Source: Taxawa tesnikishii (nom. ined.) (taxonomy: Eukaryota; Ascomycota; Dothideomycetes; Dothideales). From it: 64,000 nucleotides of DNA. The DNA lies in the NCBI GenBank assembly GCA_030247885.1, contig JAPDRO010000023.1, positions 248,001 through 312,000 of the forward strand. The letters run 5' to 3'. Under the pieces are notes generated by a model. It made no database searches. It worked only from the letters and a program-made list of their open reading frames with translations, and was not told where the DNA came from. Position numbers and translations under genes: made by a program. Positions 1,336 to 48,698 of the stretch are shown in pieces. Every line of letters starts with the position of its first letter. Positions within the stretch are counted from its first letter, which is position 1.

Positions 1336-3998
1336 CGCGCAAATGGATTCGGGGGATTGGGGGAGCCAGGCTCGAGGAGCCAGGTCGTCTTCGCGGTCAC
1401 GGTGGCCATGCTGGCCTGTTCGACCATCTTTGTCTTCTTCCGGATGGTCTCGCGCATCGGCATTGTCAAGAGAGTATACCTGGATGACTACTTCATAATA
1501 CTGGCATGGGTGGGTTGTTGGTCCGTTGTGCCAATAGAGAGTCTCGAGCGCTGACATTTACAAGTTCTTGATGTGCGGCATGACCGCCGCCATCTGCTAC
1601 GGCGCCTTCAGAGGACTCGGGAAACACGACCGCAATGTGCCACCCTCGGACGATACGCCGTTAAAGAAGGCCATTTATGCCTTCTCTGTGCTATACAACC
1701 CCGGACTGATGGCCGAGAAGACGTCGATATTGGTCTTTTACCTTACATTATCAAAAACAAACCGGACCTTTCGTTGGGCCACTATTGCTACTCTGGTCGT
1801 CGTCAACGCTGCTGGCCTGGGTCTGACTATCCTCAACACCGTTCAATGCCAGCCTGTGAGCGCAGCCTGGGAAAGCGATTTCTTATATCAACCGAATTAT
1901 GGAAAGTGCATCGATATCGTCACTATATACCTTTCTTCGTCTCCGGTGAACATCATCACGGATCTGGCGATTCTGTTCCTGCCCATGCCTATCCTGACCG
2001 GAATGCGGCTGCCAAAGAAGCAGAAGACTATCTTGGTCATCACCTTTGGTTTCGGTATATTTGCCGCAGCCGTGGACGTTGTGCGCATTGCTTACCTCCA
2101 GAATGCTTCATCAATCCGCCTGAGGGAGATGCAAAATAACGAGGATGATTCGACACAGGACTACGGATCTACGGACTTCCCTTACTACGCAGCACTGTCG
2201 TTTATGTGGTCGGCGATAGAAGTCAACGTGGGCATCATGTGTGCCTGTGTTCCGGCACTCAAGCCACTGGTGTCACGCTTCATGCCACACATGTTGCGCG
2301 ACAATCCTGGAGACGTTACGGAGAAGTCGACTTCCATTCCTTCTCTTACTATGAATATGGCCAGGGCACACCGAATCCCATCTCTTCCGGAATATGTACA
2401 CACACGTCCCCCGCCAGCCACGGCTCAAGAGGAGTCAGAGGAGCCGATGGGAATGATGGACTTTCTGACCACCCCAGACATGGCGGAGACGGACCTCCGC
2501 CGTACGCAAACGGCTCTTACCAACTCTACGAGGAACACCGCTCGGCCCGTAACTCCGACGTTTTTCGACTTTGTCAACATGAACAAGAAAAAGAGCATGG
2601 TGCACATGACGACGCAAGAATCATTGTTTCCGATCATCATGGTCACTGTGCTCTTCTTTGTTTGGGGATTCGAGTACGGCCTGCTCGACGTCTTGAACCA
2701 GCAATTCCAGCGAGTGGCCAACATGACAGGCGGTCAGACCGTCGCCATCCACAGCGCCTACTTTGCGGGATATGCATTCGGACCCATCACGTTCGGGCGA
2801 TCCGTGCTGAAGCGCTGGGGCTTCAAGGCCTGCTACACGGTCGGCCTCGCAATCTACGCTTGCGGCACTCTCATCTTCTGGCCCGCCGCTGTACTGACCT
2901 CATTCACAGCCTTCATCATCGTAAACTTCATCGTCGGAATGGGACTCTCGACGCTCGAAATCGCCGCGAACCCTTTCATCGCCCTCTGCGGGCCCATGGA
3001 ATATGCCGAGATCCGCCTCAACTTGAGCCAGGGCTTTCAGGCGATCGGAACCGTAGTCGCGCCACTAATAGCACACAAGGCCATGTTCCAGGACAACATG
3101 AGCGCGCCTTCGCTCGTCGACACCCAATGGGCATACCTCGGCATCGCGTTCTTCACCGTCTTCCTCGCCGTCGCTTATTACTACGTTCCCCTCCCCGAAG
3201 CCACGGACGCGGAGTTGGAAGACGCGTGCGAGCGACCCGACGGGGCCAATAAGGCGCAAACGCACGGCATCAGCGTCATCTGGATCACGCTCGCGGTCGC
3301 CTGCTTCAGCCAAGCCATGTACATGGGCGGCCAGGAGGTCGTCGCGACCACCTCCCGCTCCTACGTCGCTTACGTCGCGCCGAGCCTCGACACGGTCAAC
3401 TACACGGCCGTCGCGCACGCCGTCTTCGCCCTCTCCCGCTTCATCGCCGCCGCGCTCGGGTTCGCGTTCAGACCGCGCACGCTCCTGGCCTTTACTACGC
3501 GGGCGCCGTCGCCTTCGCCGCCGCCTCAATGTGCTACTCCGGCACGACCGCCGTCGCGCTCATCCTCACGCTCTACTTCTTCGAGGGCCCCATTTTTAGC
3601 CTCGTGTTCGCGCAGGCCCTGCGCGGCATGGGTCGCCACACAAAGGACGCAAGCGTGCTGTTGGTCGTGTCCATCGCCGGCGCCGCCGTCTTCCCGCCCC
3701 TGTCCTACACCGCGTCGCTGAGCCATCACGTCCCGTATAGCATGTGTGTTGCCGTGGCGGCGTTTGCGGCCGGTCTGGTGCTGCCCGTGTGGGTGAGTGC
3801 GAATGGCAGCGCGAGGAGGTTGGCGGATCCCGCGACGGAGAAGGTGGTGTTGGAGGGCGTGCGGCAGGGGAGAGGAGGGATAGTTCGGGGCTTAGCGATG
3901 GGAGTGGGAGGAGTAGGTTCAGTTGGAGGAGTTGGGGGAAGAAGGGGAAGGAGAAGAAGGACGAGATGGGGATGGAGTGGCGCGAGGCGGGGAGGTGA
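1336..3998 (+). CDS. PTH11-type rhodopsin-domain receptor fused to FucP-like MFS transporter
   Basis: One open frame links two membrane proteins. The first exon (to 1509) carries TM1 and the loop ending YLDDYFIILAW. An intron at 1510-1564 is removed in phase 0, and exon 2 starts FLMCGMTAAICYG. Exon-2 residues about 1-245 complete a seven-helix fungal rhodopsin domain (PTH11-like). A polar linker of about 105 residues follows, then from about residue 350 a fucose-permease-type MFS domain. FucP hallmarks are WGF..GLLDVLNQQFQ and LEIAANPF, which appear to keep the acidic residues equivalent to Asp46 and Glu135 of E. coli FucP. The frame slips at 3491-3493 (TTT run) and again at 3867-3870 (GGGG). 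One extra base at each restores YYAGAVAFAA and a polar tail ending with the stop at 3996-3998. The 5' end is unresolved: a TAG at 1333-1335 may be a splice acceptor, and the only in-frame ATG (1408) lies inside TM1. Whether it senses, transports or both is unknown. Confidence 0.8.
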
Positions 3999-12750: not shown

Positions 12751-13955
12751 TTAGACGAGGCTCTCCTCCGTCTTCACAGGACCCTCGCCAACACCAGTCA
12801 AGATGACCCTACTGATACCCTTCTGCAGCTTCTCAACCGTGACCTGCGAGCCCTCTGGCACCTGCTCTTCCTTGACCTTCTCCCCCTCTTGCCCTGCCAG
12901 CCCTCCTTGTCACCCAAGCAGCTCTTGAAGACGCCCGAAACCTGCTTCTCGTTCTCCTCTTGGTAATAAATGACAGCGTTCGGACCCGCGTCGAAAGTAT
13001 ACGCCGCAATGATCTTGCCCGCTCTCTCATTAATCAGCTCGACCATCCTAACGGCCGCCCTGCTCGTATCGTTCATGTAGAAGATCGGCGGTTCGGTGTC
13101 CAAGCACGTGGCGTGGAAAGAATTGCTGTCCCGCATCGTCAATTTGGCAAAGGTGTCGAAATCCTTGTTGGCAACCGCGTCCTTCATCTCCCGCATCCGC
13201 TGCGGCACCGTCTGGCGTATCCGTTCCTGGAACAGCGTGCTTGTCGCGAGCGTCGCCTGCATGCCGACAGTGGACCCGACGTCCTTCTTCTCCGCACTCG
13301 CAACGAGGACAATGGCGCGCATGTCGGGCCAGTGGCTCGCAGGCGCAACCTCGATGGCCAGAGAATCGCTCCCGTCCTCCCTCTCACCCATCTCCCACGC
13401 CACGTAGCCGCCGAACAAGCTGCGGCACGCCGAGCCCGAGCCCTGTCTCGCGATCCGCGACAGCTCGGTCGGTGACGCGGGTAGCTGGTACAGATCCGCA
13501 ATCGCTCTCACCAAGGCCGCGAAACCAGCCGCGCTGCTGGCGAGGCCGGCGGCCGTGGGGAAATTGTTCTTGGACACGATCTTCAGCTTGAGGGGAGATA
13601 GCTTGGGAAGGCTGGAGTCCGAGTCCTCGAGCTGCTGGCGCAGGGCGCGCAGTTCGCGCAGACATGCTTGCGTGCGTGCGCCCGAGATGTCTTGATCTTT
13701 GTCGTTGAGAGTGAGGGAGTCGGAAGTGTAGGAGGCGGAGCAGGAAGCGGTGGTGTGGGTGCGTAGATCGTCTTGGGAGAGGGTCACGGAGAGGGAGGAG
13801 TTGGTGGGGAGGTTCAACTTTGGGTCACGCTTGCCCCAGTATCTGGAGAAAATTAGTACAGGAGAGGACAGAATGGAGGCATTGGCGGATTACTTTATGA
13901 CGGCGATGTTCACCGGAGCGAAGGTGCTCGATCTGTATACTTCTTGTTCAGACAT
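12751..13955 (-). CDS. ERG19: Mevalonate diphosphate decarboxylase
   Basis: This enzyme converts mevalonate 5-diphosphate to isopentenyl diphosphate, the last mevalonate-pathway step toward sterols, in the cytosol. Exon 1 (13955-13894) encodes MSEQEVYRSSTFAPVNIAVI. The intron is 13893-13843 and exon 2 starts YWGKRDPKLNLPTNSSLSVT. The GHMP-kinase-type phosphate loop is visible as NNFPTAAGLASSAAGFAAL, followed by RQGSGSACRSLFGGYVAWE and the DAGPNAV segment. At 12892-12894 (CCC on the + strand) the frame slips. One extra base restores QEGEKVKEEQVPEGS and the standard C-terminus ISRVILTGVGEGPVKTEES, with stop at 12751-12753. The length is then about 384 residues, normal for the family. It is divergent from the heme lyase gene, with about 250 bp between starts. 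Confidence 0.92.
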
Positions 13956-26776: not shown

Positions 26777-29596
26777 ATGTCGCGCCCGCAGATCGGCATC
26801 GACCGCCTGCCGGTACGCCGCCTCAGCAATGAGCCGAAAGAAGCCATGAACTGCAAAAGCTGTCGCAAGAGAAAGGTGCCCTGAGCCCCCCGCCCACTTC
26901 TCCATACCGTCAGGCTGATTGCGACAAGATCAAGTGCAACCGTCTGCGGCCCTCTTGCGAAGCTTGCCAGGTCTTCAACTGCGAGTGCATCTATGGTTAG
27001 CAGCTTACCGCGCCGTTCCTTCCTCTCGCCCGTCTCATCAAGCTGACACCTCAACCCCTCCGTAGACGCGATACCCAAGAAGCGAGGGCCCAAAACAGAT
27101 GTGCTCGAAGCCCTTCTGAAGCGTGTCAATGGGCTGGAGAAGCGGCTCAAGGACGAGAGCAAGTCGGAATTTACCGAAGACAAAGATGAAAGCGCCGTGA
27201 GGGAAGGCAGCGGGGATGCTGAGAAAAGCAGCAACAAGCAGGCACAGAGGGCGCCCGCCGTAGAACAACAGCAACAACACATACTGGAACCAACTCCAGC
27301 CACTGCTCTGAGCTTTCCAGAGCCTCTACAACTGTGCGCAGCCTAGCTCTGTCGATGGACGATCTCCACGCTGACACGTTCTCAGCCACCAGAAGCCCTC
27401 GCCCACGAACAATTCCGCCTTGTTGGATATCTACTTCAGCCGGATACACGGAAAACCTTATTACATACTTGACGAATCTGCGACGCGACAGAGATGGCAG
27501 AACGGGCAATTGCCTCTGGCCACGGTGAACGCTATCCACGCCGTGAGCGCACGGTGAGTAACAGGCATCACAGTTGGCAAATTCAGGTCGTCTGACAGCT
27601 CCAGGTACGCTCCTCACTTGTTTGGAGGCTACAACGCTGCGGTGAGGTCTAGCGAGGAATGTGCCATGCGGGCGCGGATGGCTTTGGACTCCGACGAACC
27701 CTCCATCGAGAATTTACAAACATCGCTCTTGCTCTCTACTGCGTTCTTCCAGGCTGGGAGGGGAAGAAGTCGTACATGCTTCTTTGTAAGACACCGTCCG
27801 GTCGAAGTCAAGGTTCGGTTGTCCTGTACTGACTGGTGTTCAGCAAGCGCAGTCAGCATGGCCTTTGCTCTGGGCTTGCACAGGGAGCTACCCATGGGCC
27901 TTCGGATTTCCCTGTGGAACGCGAAGGTCGTCGAAAGCTCTTCTGGACATGCTACCTCATGGACCGATTTGTCGCATCTGGCTCCAAACGCCCATCACTT
28001 ATATCGGACGAGTCGATAGGATTGCGGTTACCTGCATGGCAGCCGGACGCATCGTCAATTCCGTTTGAAGGGAACTTCTTTTCCAACGGACCAAACATGC
28101 CTTTCACCGCGGGACCTGGAAGAGGCAATCAAAGCGCGGGGTCCATGCTTATCGAGATCGTCCGTGTCCTTGGCATCACCAATCGGTACCTTGCAGCTGG
28201 CGGCGTGAAAGGCGATTCACACTTCCCTTGGCATGCTCAGTCGAACCTGTCCAGGATCAGGCAAGATCTCGATACTTGGGCCGGTAACACCCAGGATGCA
28301 TTCATTTCCATCGAAGCTCTCTTTGGACAGCCGGAGAGCTCGACTCTGGTCCTCAGCAAGCTCATATACCATTTGATCCATTGTCTCATATATCGGCCAT
28401 TCCTACCGGTGGATCTCACTGAACTGGCAGGTACTGGCCAGCACCAGTCGTGGCAGATCGAGGCGACCAATCTTTGCTTCCTTCATGCAAATGCTATAGC
28501 GGAACTCGTCGAGATTGGCAAGACATCATCTATCGTAGACTGGCCTTCTTTTGTCGGATACTGCCTTTGTACTGCCGGAACCATTCACGTCCACGGGGCT
28601 CACTATATGGGCAGAGAGGGCGATGTCTTCGCCCGAAGCGCAGAGTTTCTCTCAAGAGAAATGGCCCAGATTTCCGACCTGCGAGTCATCTGGGCCGGTG
28701 TGCAGCACCAGAGGGAAACTCTGCAAACCGTCTACGGCTGCCATTCTCAGCTCGTGAAGTCTCTTGCGAGCAACCCGATGCGCTTCTCTCCGGTCTTCCA
28801 GATGGAGGATTTCTTCGATCGCTACCCTGGACAGTTTATTGATGGAGCTCATGTGACCTTCTCGGATATAACGGTAGAGGCGCTTCATGAGAGGTACGTA
28901 TTTCTTCAATTAGTTTATCGTGAGCCACTTCTGATGTGTTATAGTTTGCCAGCATACAGTGGATTGAACGGTACAGGCTGGCAATGGGTTGGCCGGCCAC
29001 CAACAGGCGCAAACCATGTCCTGCAATCCCTAAGCGCAGTGGTAAACGAAACTCGCTCACCGCAACAGTCAAAGAAGAAGAGGAGGCGCACAAACGACAT
29101 ATCCACTTCAGAACCACAGCTAACGCCAGCCCTTACGGAGCACAAATTGCCTTCACTAGAGGAGCAGATTTCACAACAGCAACAGCATCAGCAATCACAG
29201 CAACGGCAACAGCAAAAACACCCTCCCCACCCCGAGCTCCCCAACGATCCAAACTCCGCCGTCCTCGACCCTATCGAGTCTGGCGATGGCATCAACACAG
29301 TCGAAAACGACCTCCCTTCCTCTACGCTCCCTCAATCCGTTTTCTCACCCAACTTCAGCTTCGACCCATGGCCGGCAACATTGACGCTCAACCCCTCCGA
29401 CACGGGGCAGTTCGATAATTTGTTTAGTCTGCAAGCGTACGATCAGCAGACTCCCGGCGCGCTCAGTGCGAACGGTTCAGCGCACACGGAGAGCGACAAG
29501 GATCCATTCTTGAGCCTGTTGGAGCAGTTGGCCGAGAATGAGCACTCGCAAGGGGGACCGAGCGATTTGGATTTCTTCTTGAGTGGGCAGGGGTAA
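26777..29596 (+). CDS. Zn(II)2Cys6 transcription factor with fungal-specific regulatory domain
   Basis: Seven exons: 26777-26875, 26929-26995, 27066-27333, 27386-27553, 27605-27785, 27844-28893 and 28945-29596. The binuclear cluster forms only after splicing: CKSCRKRK joins [20 protein letters not shown] with exact CX2CX6CX6CX2CX6C spacing. A basic linker (PKKRGPK) and a short coiled coil ([18 protein letters not shown]) follow, as is usual for dimers. The middle is the fungal-specific domain ([44 protein letters not shown]). The C-terminus is Gln-rich and acidic. One-base slips at 27760-27763 (GGGG) and 27910-27912 (CCC) are needed to link the frames. With them, all exons sum to 828 codons plus stop. 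Target genes are unknown; the polygalacturonase is a neighbour. Confidence 0.85.
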
Positions 29597-30391: not shown

Positions 30392-31778
30392 CTAGCACTT
30401 AGCCGGGCTGGGGACGTTCTCGCACTTGGTGCTAGTCTTTCCACCAGTGATGCTAACACCGCTCCAAGTCCAGCCGGAGCAAGCGCCGCTGGCGCAGAGG
30501 ATGTAGACGTCGGTCGCGGAGCTGCTTACGGTTCCGGTAACACCGGAGATGGTGAGATCGGTGATGGGGACGCCGTTGGTAGGGGTTCCGGTCGGCGAGC
30601 CGTTCTCGTAGTCCTGCTCGATCACGATGCCGTAGCTGGTGATTCCGGAAAGCGTCTACATGTGGTCAAAATCTGTGTCTTATCGTGCGCAATCTGTAAG
30701 GGTGGTGAGAGAGAGGCTTACGATGTCCTTGTAGGTGACGCCGGAGACGGTGCCGGTGGCGCCGGAGACGGTCTTGATGCGCACGCCTGGTATGTGCGTT
30801 AGTGGGCTGGGTTTTCGCAAACGTGGGGGAGATGGGGGTTGGATTGAGGGCACGTACCGTTTGCAGAGTTCTTGACGGTGGAGTTCTCGATCGTCACGCC
30901 GCTGACGGTGTTGTCGGAACGTCCACCAACGGAGCCGATTGAGAGACCATGGCCGCCGGAGCAAGTGCCGCCAGTGAAGATGATGTTCTACAAGGACTGT
31001 CAGCTCAGCATGTCTTGCGGTATCCCGGGATACGAAGCTGACCTCTCCTGAGTTGACGGCGAGACAGTCATCCTGATTCTGAACGTTTGCGCCAGTGATG
31101 GTGATGCCGGTAGAGTCACCGATATCGAAAGCGTCGGTGTTGTGAGCACCCCCAGAGTCACCAGCCGAGTTGTCAATGGTAATCGAAGTCAAAGAGAGGT
31201 CGGTGGAGCCGTCAATGCTGAAAACCTGAACGGGAGAGTTCTTGATCGTGAGACCGGTGATGGAAGAGGACTTCATGCTATGAGCGTAGAAGAACTTGGG
31301 CTTGGTCTTGCCGCCATTGGTGCCCTCGCCGTCCCACCAGCGGGAACCATCACCATCGAGAACGCTGCCGCTGGCACCGGTGACGGTGATGCTGGTACCG
31401 GAGACAGAGACGAGCGGGCCAGACCACTCCTTGTAGCCGAAGGTGGTGGTACCGTCGAAGACGATCTGCTCGAGTTCAGCAGTGCTCACCGTGGCGAAGA
31501 CGAGACGGTTTACTCACATGAGTACCGCTGTTCAAGCCGGTAAGATCCAGGGTGGTACCCGAAGGAACGGCGACGTTGTTGAGGACAATGGTAGCACAGC
31601 TAGTCTTGGACTTGCTTGCGGAGGCAGCGCCTGCAGATCCGGAGAAGGTGCAGGTAGCGCTGGCTCTCTTGGCGAGATCAGGAGCCGCAGTGACCATTGG
31701 GGCTGCTGGTGCTGCCTGAACGGCGACAGCTCCCAGGAGAGCTGCGAGAGCCGCAGCGGAGGTAGCGAAGTGAACCAT
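30392..31778 (-). CDS. Endopolygalacturonase (glycoside hydrolase family 28)
   Basis: Secreted enzyme that hydrolyses homogalacturonan in plant pectin. Five exons join exactly (31778-31518, 31465-31043, 30987-30858, 30786-30722, 30655-30392) to 380 residues. The signal peptide is [22 protein letters not shown], and a short propeptide ends in the dibasic LAKR, a Kex2-type site. GH28 active-site motifs are all present: [27 protein letters not shown] and RIKT. Conserved Cys positions fit disulfides. The right-handed beta-helix is reflected by repeated TGLTIKNSP-, SITIDNS- and VTIENSTV-like strands. All introns are GT-AG and the frame is intact. It points to an organism that feeds on or invades plant tissue. 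Confidence 0.95.
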
Positions 31779-47404: not shown

Positions 47405-48698
47405 ATGTCTGATACAACAACAGTCGGGATAAGTCCTCCGAGGATAAACAACAACGATCGTGGACCAGGCCTCATCATCGCCGCCGCTGTAATGCTGTCA
47501 TGTACTATGCTGTCTCTCGGTGTGCGATTGTATAGCCGATGGCCGTGGAGCAGGAACTTAAGAGCAGACGATTATGTGCTGTGCGCTGCCATAGTGAGCA
47601 TCTGCCCGCTCTTCAACACGTCTTAGTACATCCTAACACCATAACTCTGTAGTTGTTCGCCATAGCCAATACAGCTGCAGTGGGCGTGTCAGTACACAAC
47701 GGCTTCGGGCAACGCGAAGTCCTTCTCTCAACCCAGCAGATCGACCAATCGAAGAAGGTACTGTTCTGAGTGTCCGCTCGAGTGATGTATCTCACTGATC
47801 GCCTCCATTCCAGGCTTTCCTCGCTAGTTACCTTTTACTCTTCATCAGCGAAGGGCTGGCAGCATGCGCCTACGCCCTACTTTTACTCCGCATTGTGCCA
47901 CAGAAAACATACGGCTTTGCGATGAAGCTCATGTGTGGCATCGCCTCTATGTGGGCATTCGCCGGCGTCGTGCGAATGGCTGCGTCCTTCAACCCGTCCG
48001 TGGCCGACCCTAACGTGAGTACCAAGGTCCTATCCTCTCTCTTTCTTTCTCTATGTCACTCGCGCTCACCTCGCTCCTAGCGCGCGACATGGATGGTGTT
48101 CGGCGCCCTCAACAGCATCATGCAAGCGGCTCTCTTCATCGCCTCCATGTGGATGATCTGGCCGCTGCAGATGGCAACGCACAGGAAGCTAGGCTGGAGC
48201 ATCTGGTTCGCGCTCTGCGTGCCCATCATCGCATGCATCGCGCTCCGCCTCGCCAGCACGCCCTCCCGCACTTTCGATCCCGACTGGACCTTCCGCGACA
48301 CGCTCCCCTCCATCTACGCCCAAGTGGAGCTGCACCTCATCAACATCAACGCAACATACGCGTCCCTGCGCTCCTTCCTCGACAAGGCCAGCACCGGCTT
48401 CATCGTCTCGTCCGTGCCGCCGCTATCCTCGTCCAAATCCCGCTCCGGCCGCGGCGTCTACGGCCACGGAACGCATAATGGAACGGGAGCCTATGGCATG
48501 CAACCCATCGGCGCAAAAGGCGGTAGTGGGGGCAGTAGCAGCGGCGGCAGCAAGATGAAGCTGCGCGCTGACATCCAGAGCATATACACCCCGACCGTGA
48601 ACGGGGGCGGTGTATCCGGCGATCGCGTGAGCGTCAAGAGCTACGACAGCCAGGCCATCATGGTCCGCAGGAGCGTCGACGTACAAAGCACGACGTGA
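47405..48698 (+). CDS. Rhodopsin-domain (PTH11-related) integral membrane protein
   Basis: Four exons (47405-47593, 47653-47757, 47814-48014, 48081-48698), all phase 0, give 370 residues. Seven hydrophobic helices follow a short N-terminus, with the family loop RNLRADDYVLC after TM1, comparable to the LDDYFIILAW loop in the 1.3-kb gene. TM segments include AYALLLLRIVP, MWAFAGVVRMAAS and WFALCVPIIACIALRL. The C-terminal ~110 residues are a cytosolic Gly/Ser-rich tail. There is no CFEM domain. Such proteins are GPCR-like sensors in other fungi (for example Pth11 surface sensing); ligand and coupling are unknown. The frame is intact. Confidence 0.8.

Follow-up and report, generated by a model that had tools for sequence, protein, structure and literature searches.

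In Taxawa tesnikishii, a PTH11-type seven-transmembrane (7-TM) receptor domain and a fucose-permease-type MFS transporter domain share one open reading frame, from 1565 to about 3496 of the window. The window is the whole stretch of DNA analysed here, 64,000 nucleotides that lie at C16:248001-312000 in a genome of 29.4 Mb and 34 contigs, and coordinates refer to it unless another contig or locus is named. We consider it likely that the fused receptor-transporter gene is real. As assembled, however, no single frame covers the whole gene. The reading that we moderately favour is that of one gene encoding a single PTH11-FucP chain, in which the frame change and the absent start codon are indels of the assembly and the protein would use a transceptor-like mechanism. 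The features of the gene are the following:

1336..1509, + strand: exon 1 of the receptor half, with helix 1 and the beginning of helix 2; its frame runs from a stop at 1333 to the donor at 1510
1510..1564, + strand: intron of 55 bases (GTGGGT...CTGAC...TACAAG), joining exon 1 to exon 2
1565..2278, + strand: receptor half of exon 2, the rest of the PTH11-type (Fung_rhodopsin) 7-TM domain; PF20684 match
2273..2626, + strand: polar linker of about 118 residues from receptor helix 7 to transporter helix 1; the frame is kept and has no stop
2627..3496, + strand: transporter helices 1 to 8 (approximately), FucP/FHS-type MFS, read in the receptor's frame; profile positions 5-307 of 413
3487..3499, + strand: frame change without intron, approximately between transporter helices 8 and 9; profile position 307 is reached in both frames, with overlapping coordinates
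3493..3795, + strand: transporter helices 9 to 12 (approximately), out of frame as assembled; profile positions 307-399 of 413; matches to L010 and L011
3796..4080, + strand: C-terminal tail, uncertain; its end depends on the frame (4080 or 3995, with stops at 3996 and 4081)

Two membrane domains in one frame

On the + strand, the frame whose codons start at coordinates equal to 2 modulo 3 is free of stops from 1538 to 3721. In a Pfam search it encodes PF20684 (residues 12-247) and then MFS_1 (residues 377-646, E 2.8e-11). Counted from 1565, 718 codons are open, and about 644 of them, up to 3496, are sensible. Dinucleotide shuffles keep 1565-3490 open in 0 of 2000 cases, and the frame indicated by codon bias is identical on either side of the linker (statistics trained on 2195 codons from 14 paralogue pieces). 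A single frame spans the receptor part of exon 2 and positions 5-307 of the transporter profile; both helix bundles would lie whole in one chain only with the frame change resolved.

An earlier note on this DNA had described one exon that leads from the receptor through a linker into a complete FucP-type MFS domain. The stop-free frame from 1565 to about 3496 agrees with the shared exon, but the complete transporter has to be given up: the profile is matched at 5-307 in the first frame and at 307-399 in another, the switch falls at about 3493, and the codon statistics switch likewise. The proposed exon 2 of 811 residues, extending to 3998, does not stand either, as the stop codon of this frame is at 3719-3721 and that at 3996 belongs to a third frame. 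The count of about 19 helices is reached only when the last four transporter helices are added across the frame change, and not within one frame. Simple hydropathy calls six of the seven receptor helices, helix 3 being the one missed, and nine of the twelve transporter helices; the remaining numbering is taken from the family layout.

The receptor half matches PF20684 with E 3.4e-51 and 174.5 bits against a cut-off of 27, over profile positions 27-237 of 237 (query: frame 1538-3718, exon 1 left out). This is the top score among the 82 PF20684 matches listed for the genome, a number that is a lower bound and is partly made up of exon pieces. We take the receptor half to be of PTH11 type from family resemblance. 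Filamentous ascomycetes have many such receptors, most of them, to our knowledge, with no known ligand. Their genes are said, in passages of the literature listed below, to be restricted to Pezizomycotina, which makes the present organism probably a filamentous ascomycete. A PDB search with the receptor half gave no credible match (best E 1.3). Against bacterial and viral collections, the receptor half with the linker gave 55 and 2 pattern matches, none of them confirmed; these are non-fungal sets, so the absence is uninformative.

The charges of the loops, with loop limits set by eye, are K+R/D+E = 4/2, 3/0 and 4/0 in loops 1, 3 and 5, and 5/3, 1/3 and 2/6 in loops 2, 4 and 6, where loop 2 is a poor fit. 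These charges lean towards an orientation with the N-terminus outside and the C-terminus inside, which we take to be the probable one.

Exon 1 contains a hydrophobic stretch at 1384-1440, and the codon signal at 1322-1501 is strongest in the exon 1 frame. The 58-residue piece has, by itself, no Pfam match. Among the ten GT..AG pairs listed around the intron, three keep the frame (donors 1510, 1525 and 1528, all with the acceptor at 1564). In a donor-plus-branch scan, 1510-1564 is the only pair within 1490-1580 that has a donor pattern and a branch-like CTGAC motif. There is no in-frame ATG in exon 1 from the stop at 1333 until 1408, which is inside helix 1. An ATG at 1343 is in a different frame, and two five-G runs lie between it and helix 1. 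Most likely, the missing in-frame start is an indel error of the assembly.

For the transporter half we used a profile built from 76 bacterial relatives; 80 had been fetched, the best 80 of at least 555 confirmed stretches, and four were dropped by length. The profile is matched over 5-399 of its 413 positions, split between the two frames, and hydrophobic segments are found across 3508-3795. The E. coli L-fucose:H+ symporter (PDB 3o7q_A) is matched with E 9.4e-27 over residues 21-174 of a 307-residue query. TIGR00885 fucP scores 121.7 bits with the in-frame part 2561-3496 alone as query, which is under the equivalog cut-off of 280.4; L-fucose is therefore not established as the substrate. Judged by these matches, the transporter half is an FHS-family transporter with an unproven substrate. 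The aspartate at 2687-2689 and the glutamate at 2957-2959 align to residues 46 and 135 of E. coli FucP, so that the earlier statement that the acidic positions of FucP are kept is correct. Both D46 and E135 of FucP matter for transport. The further suggestion that the transporter half looks active fails for the gene as assembled, given the frame switch, and could be upheld only if the assembly is in error at the frame change.

Further PTH11-like sequences are present in the window and elsewhere in the genome. A second, weaker PF20684 match lies at 47811-48383 (E 6.4e-8), about 45 kb from the fusion. Contig C2 has five PTH11-like places with internal stops, some of which may be introns, near 103007, 341763, 554683, 835268 and 988496. 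Three of the five share identical scores, and the places at 89.8 and 103.5 kb are spaced equally to those at 541.5 and 555.2 kb, which suggests a large segmental duplication. The window also contains a glycosyl hydrolase family 28 piece (30683-31513, - strand) near a fungal transcription factor domain (27833-29593, + strand).

The frame change near 3490 and slips elsewhere in the assembly

The profile match in the first frame ends at about 3496 and the one in the second frame begins at about 3493. The codon statistics change frame at the same place. An intron was considered as the cause and rejected: the GT..AG pairs that restore the frame (40-200 bases, within 3330-3640) remove or misframe conserved transporter residues, donor-plus-branch pairs start only at 3531, past the slip, and the profile resumes at the same position with overlapping coordinates, leaving no room.

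The frame change could instead be real. In that case the product would be a whole PTH11-type receptor that continues into only some eight transporter helices and then into a tail without meaning; the fusion would be in decay, or the transporter vestigial. The switch is clean and without room for an intron, the start codon is likewise out of frame, and no single-base run longer than three occurs in 3487-3499; all of this is in line with a real change. However, both the codon bias and the family resemblance persist past the slip, with a GC3 of 0.87 in 3482-3661 and a profile match of E 2.1e-13 when three sequences were searched. We consider a real frame change unlikely, also in view of what is seen in other genes of the same assembly.

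Frame slips without an intron are found in the gene for CCT-epsilon (L152, G000:C1:526900-528650) and in an HSP70-like gene (L153, G000:C3:494050-495450). These two regions were picked for their abutting matches and show that slips occur, not how frequent they are; by eye, two abutting breaks were counted among the genes behind 24 CCT and 20 HSP70 matches. In the window itself, the mevalonate diphosphate decarboxylase gene (12754-13889, - strand) has a slip without an intron at about 12,860-12,890 (near 12,880), beside a G run. The body of this protein ends at position 143 of the MDD_C profile, and its C-terminal end follows in the other frame at 152-184. Both pieces have the same yeast chain as their best PDB match, the short piece with an E of only 0.0052. 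The two FucP paralogues have one such slip each near the end of the domain, at about 2591-2600 in L010 and about 2523-2526 in L011. All five of these slips are in or beside single-base runs of length four or five. The methionyl-tRNA synthetase of the window shows no slip over 570 aligned residues.

The slips in CCT-epsilon, the HSP70-like gene, mevalonate diphosphate decarboxylase and both FucP paralogues indicate that the assembly is prone to indels. CCT-epsilon and mevalonate diphosphate decarboxylase are essential in yeast, and an error-prone assembly is therefore the simplest reading of the slips. On the other side, a slip is present in three of the three FucP-type genes found in this genome, which is commoner than in the chaperone genes and could be real decay, as the vestigial-transporter explanation would have it. 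The same lesion in genes of essential type, CCT-epsilon and mevalonate diphosphate decarboxylase, speaks against that explanation and makes an assembly error likelier than decay at 3490. In our judgement the frame change is probably an assembly error, and the transporter half is, with the same confidence, full length in the organism.

The linker: one gene or two

The earlier note had described a polar in-frame linker without a stop, and this is borne out, with about 118 residues at 2273-2626. The openness alone is weak evidence, since a second frame through the linker is also without a stop and the codon signal at 2282-2461 is weak, being not above that of flanking DNA. Of 2000 dinucleotide shuffles of the linker (2276-2629), 34 leave it open. 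The donor-plus-branch scan, which recovers the 1510-1564 intron, gives no intron candidate in 2250-2660.

A linker of this kind could also separate two adjacent genes. The apparent fusion would then come from an indel or misjoin that hides a stop or a boundary in the linker, or the two halves would be separate transcripts. The assembly does have indels, there are five-base single-nucleotide runs in the linker at 2408, 2561 and 2588, and many in-frame ATGs inside it could be the start of a separate permease; the first part of the linker is, as noted, weak in codon signal. Yet the two halves are in a common frame, which demands either no slips at all or slips that compensate each other. Further, only about 354 bases separate the receptor and transporter helix bundles, and a 3' end, a spacer, a promoter and a 5' end would all have to fit there. 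Five promoter or polyadenylation words were tried (TATAA, TATAT, CCAAT, ATTGG and AATAAA) and none occurs in 2276-2629; this counts weakly against two genes, as short words are often missing by chance.

The genomic surroundings lean the other way. A protein search of the genome found three FucP-type places, and among the matches listed only the fusion adjoins a PTH11-type gene: for the other two FucP-type genes, the distance to the closest PF20684 match listed is about 82 kb (C9) and about 64 kb (C31). Taking both sides together we regard two adjacent genes as unlikely.

A single chain also agrees with the predicted topology. The N-terminus of an MFS transporter belongs on the cytosolic side, and since the C-terminus of the receptor leans cytosolic, no extra helix is needed to join the halves. 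Compatibility of the two topologies is thus supported.

Known systems and a proposed mechanism

Both domains belong to known families, and chains that combine a receptor with a transporter are of a known kind. To PTH11-type receptors (PF20684 Fung_rhodopsin, class X GPCR-like) the gene is tied by the match of its receptor half (E 3.4e-51); it differs from them by its transporter domain, which the literature passages do not mention for these receptors. To the FucP/FHS transporters, represented by the E. coli L-fucose:H+ symporter (3o7q), it is tied by the TIGR00885 and 3o7q matches and by the acidic residues kept at 46 and 135. Here the differences are that the transporter is fused behind a receptor, that its last four helices or so are out of frame as assembled, and that its score is under the fucP cut-off.

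In the passages drawn on, LYCHOS/GPR155 is the closest parallel described. It is an animal chain of 17 helices in which a PIN-like transporter domain is joined to a 7-TM GPCR-like domain, and where cholesterol is bound where the two domains meet. The likeness, according to these passages, is one of layout: a transporter-like and a receptor-like bundle in a single chain. LYCHOS/GPR155 differs in that the transporter-like part comes first and is PIN (auxin)-like, in that the protein is lysosomal, and in that a DEP domain stands at its end. Between the fungal layout and LYCHOS/GPR155 the domain order and both families are thus different, and the ligand probably is too. The Neurospora transceptors CDT-1 and CDT-2 are similar, according to the passages, in that nutrient sensing is tied to a transporter, but there a single transporter does both jobs. 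The passages come from PMC12842992, PMC5307856, PMC3998047, PMC6459559, PMC12716839, PMC12892961, PMC11574030, PMC12941744 and PMC9500233.

Among the matches listed in the open-licence literature (titles and abstracts) there is no report of a PTH11-FucP fusion. The earlier remark that no described fungal protein of this layout was known is uncontradicted within that literature, but chains that combine a receptor with a transporter are already known from LYCHOS/GPR155. Public fungal proteomes may contain comparable composite proteins that have drawn no comment. As for CDT-1 and CDT-2, we know of no fused 7-TM domain in either of them.

The mechanism that we propose for the single fused chain is as follows. 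A PTH11-type 7-TM receptor would lead, through a flexible linker of some 118 residues in the cytosol, into a sugar/H+ symporter of the FucP (FHS) family. With the receptor oriented N-out/C-in, the linker and the N-terminus of the transporter would both be in the cytosol. When a substrate binds to the transporter half or passes through it, the receptor half may change in state, abundance or turnover, and the altered receptor half may change G-protein or endosomal signalling. We infer one transcript, a full-length protein, transport, signalling and their coupling, and with these a transceptor function. For the coupling of the two halves in particular, our confidence is somewhat below even.

In its strongest form, the proposal is of a fungal counterpart to LYCHOS: a conserved and expressed chain, of independent origin and opposite domain order, in which an FHS symporter directly gates a PTH11-type receptor or reports to it, turning nutrient flux into G-protein or endosomal signalling inside a single molecule. 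We hold this form to be rather doubtful. If it were true, a chain of transporter and receptor would have been invented twice independently, once here and once in LYCHOS. That a PTH11-type receptor is naturally joined to a sugar transporter would further indicate which class of ligand is likely for one subgroup of these receptors or more, and it would offer a direct genetic handle on the link between uptake and receptor signalling. The same molecule could then both sense a nutrient and take it up.
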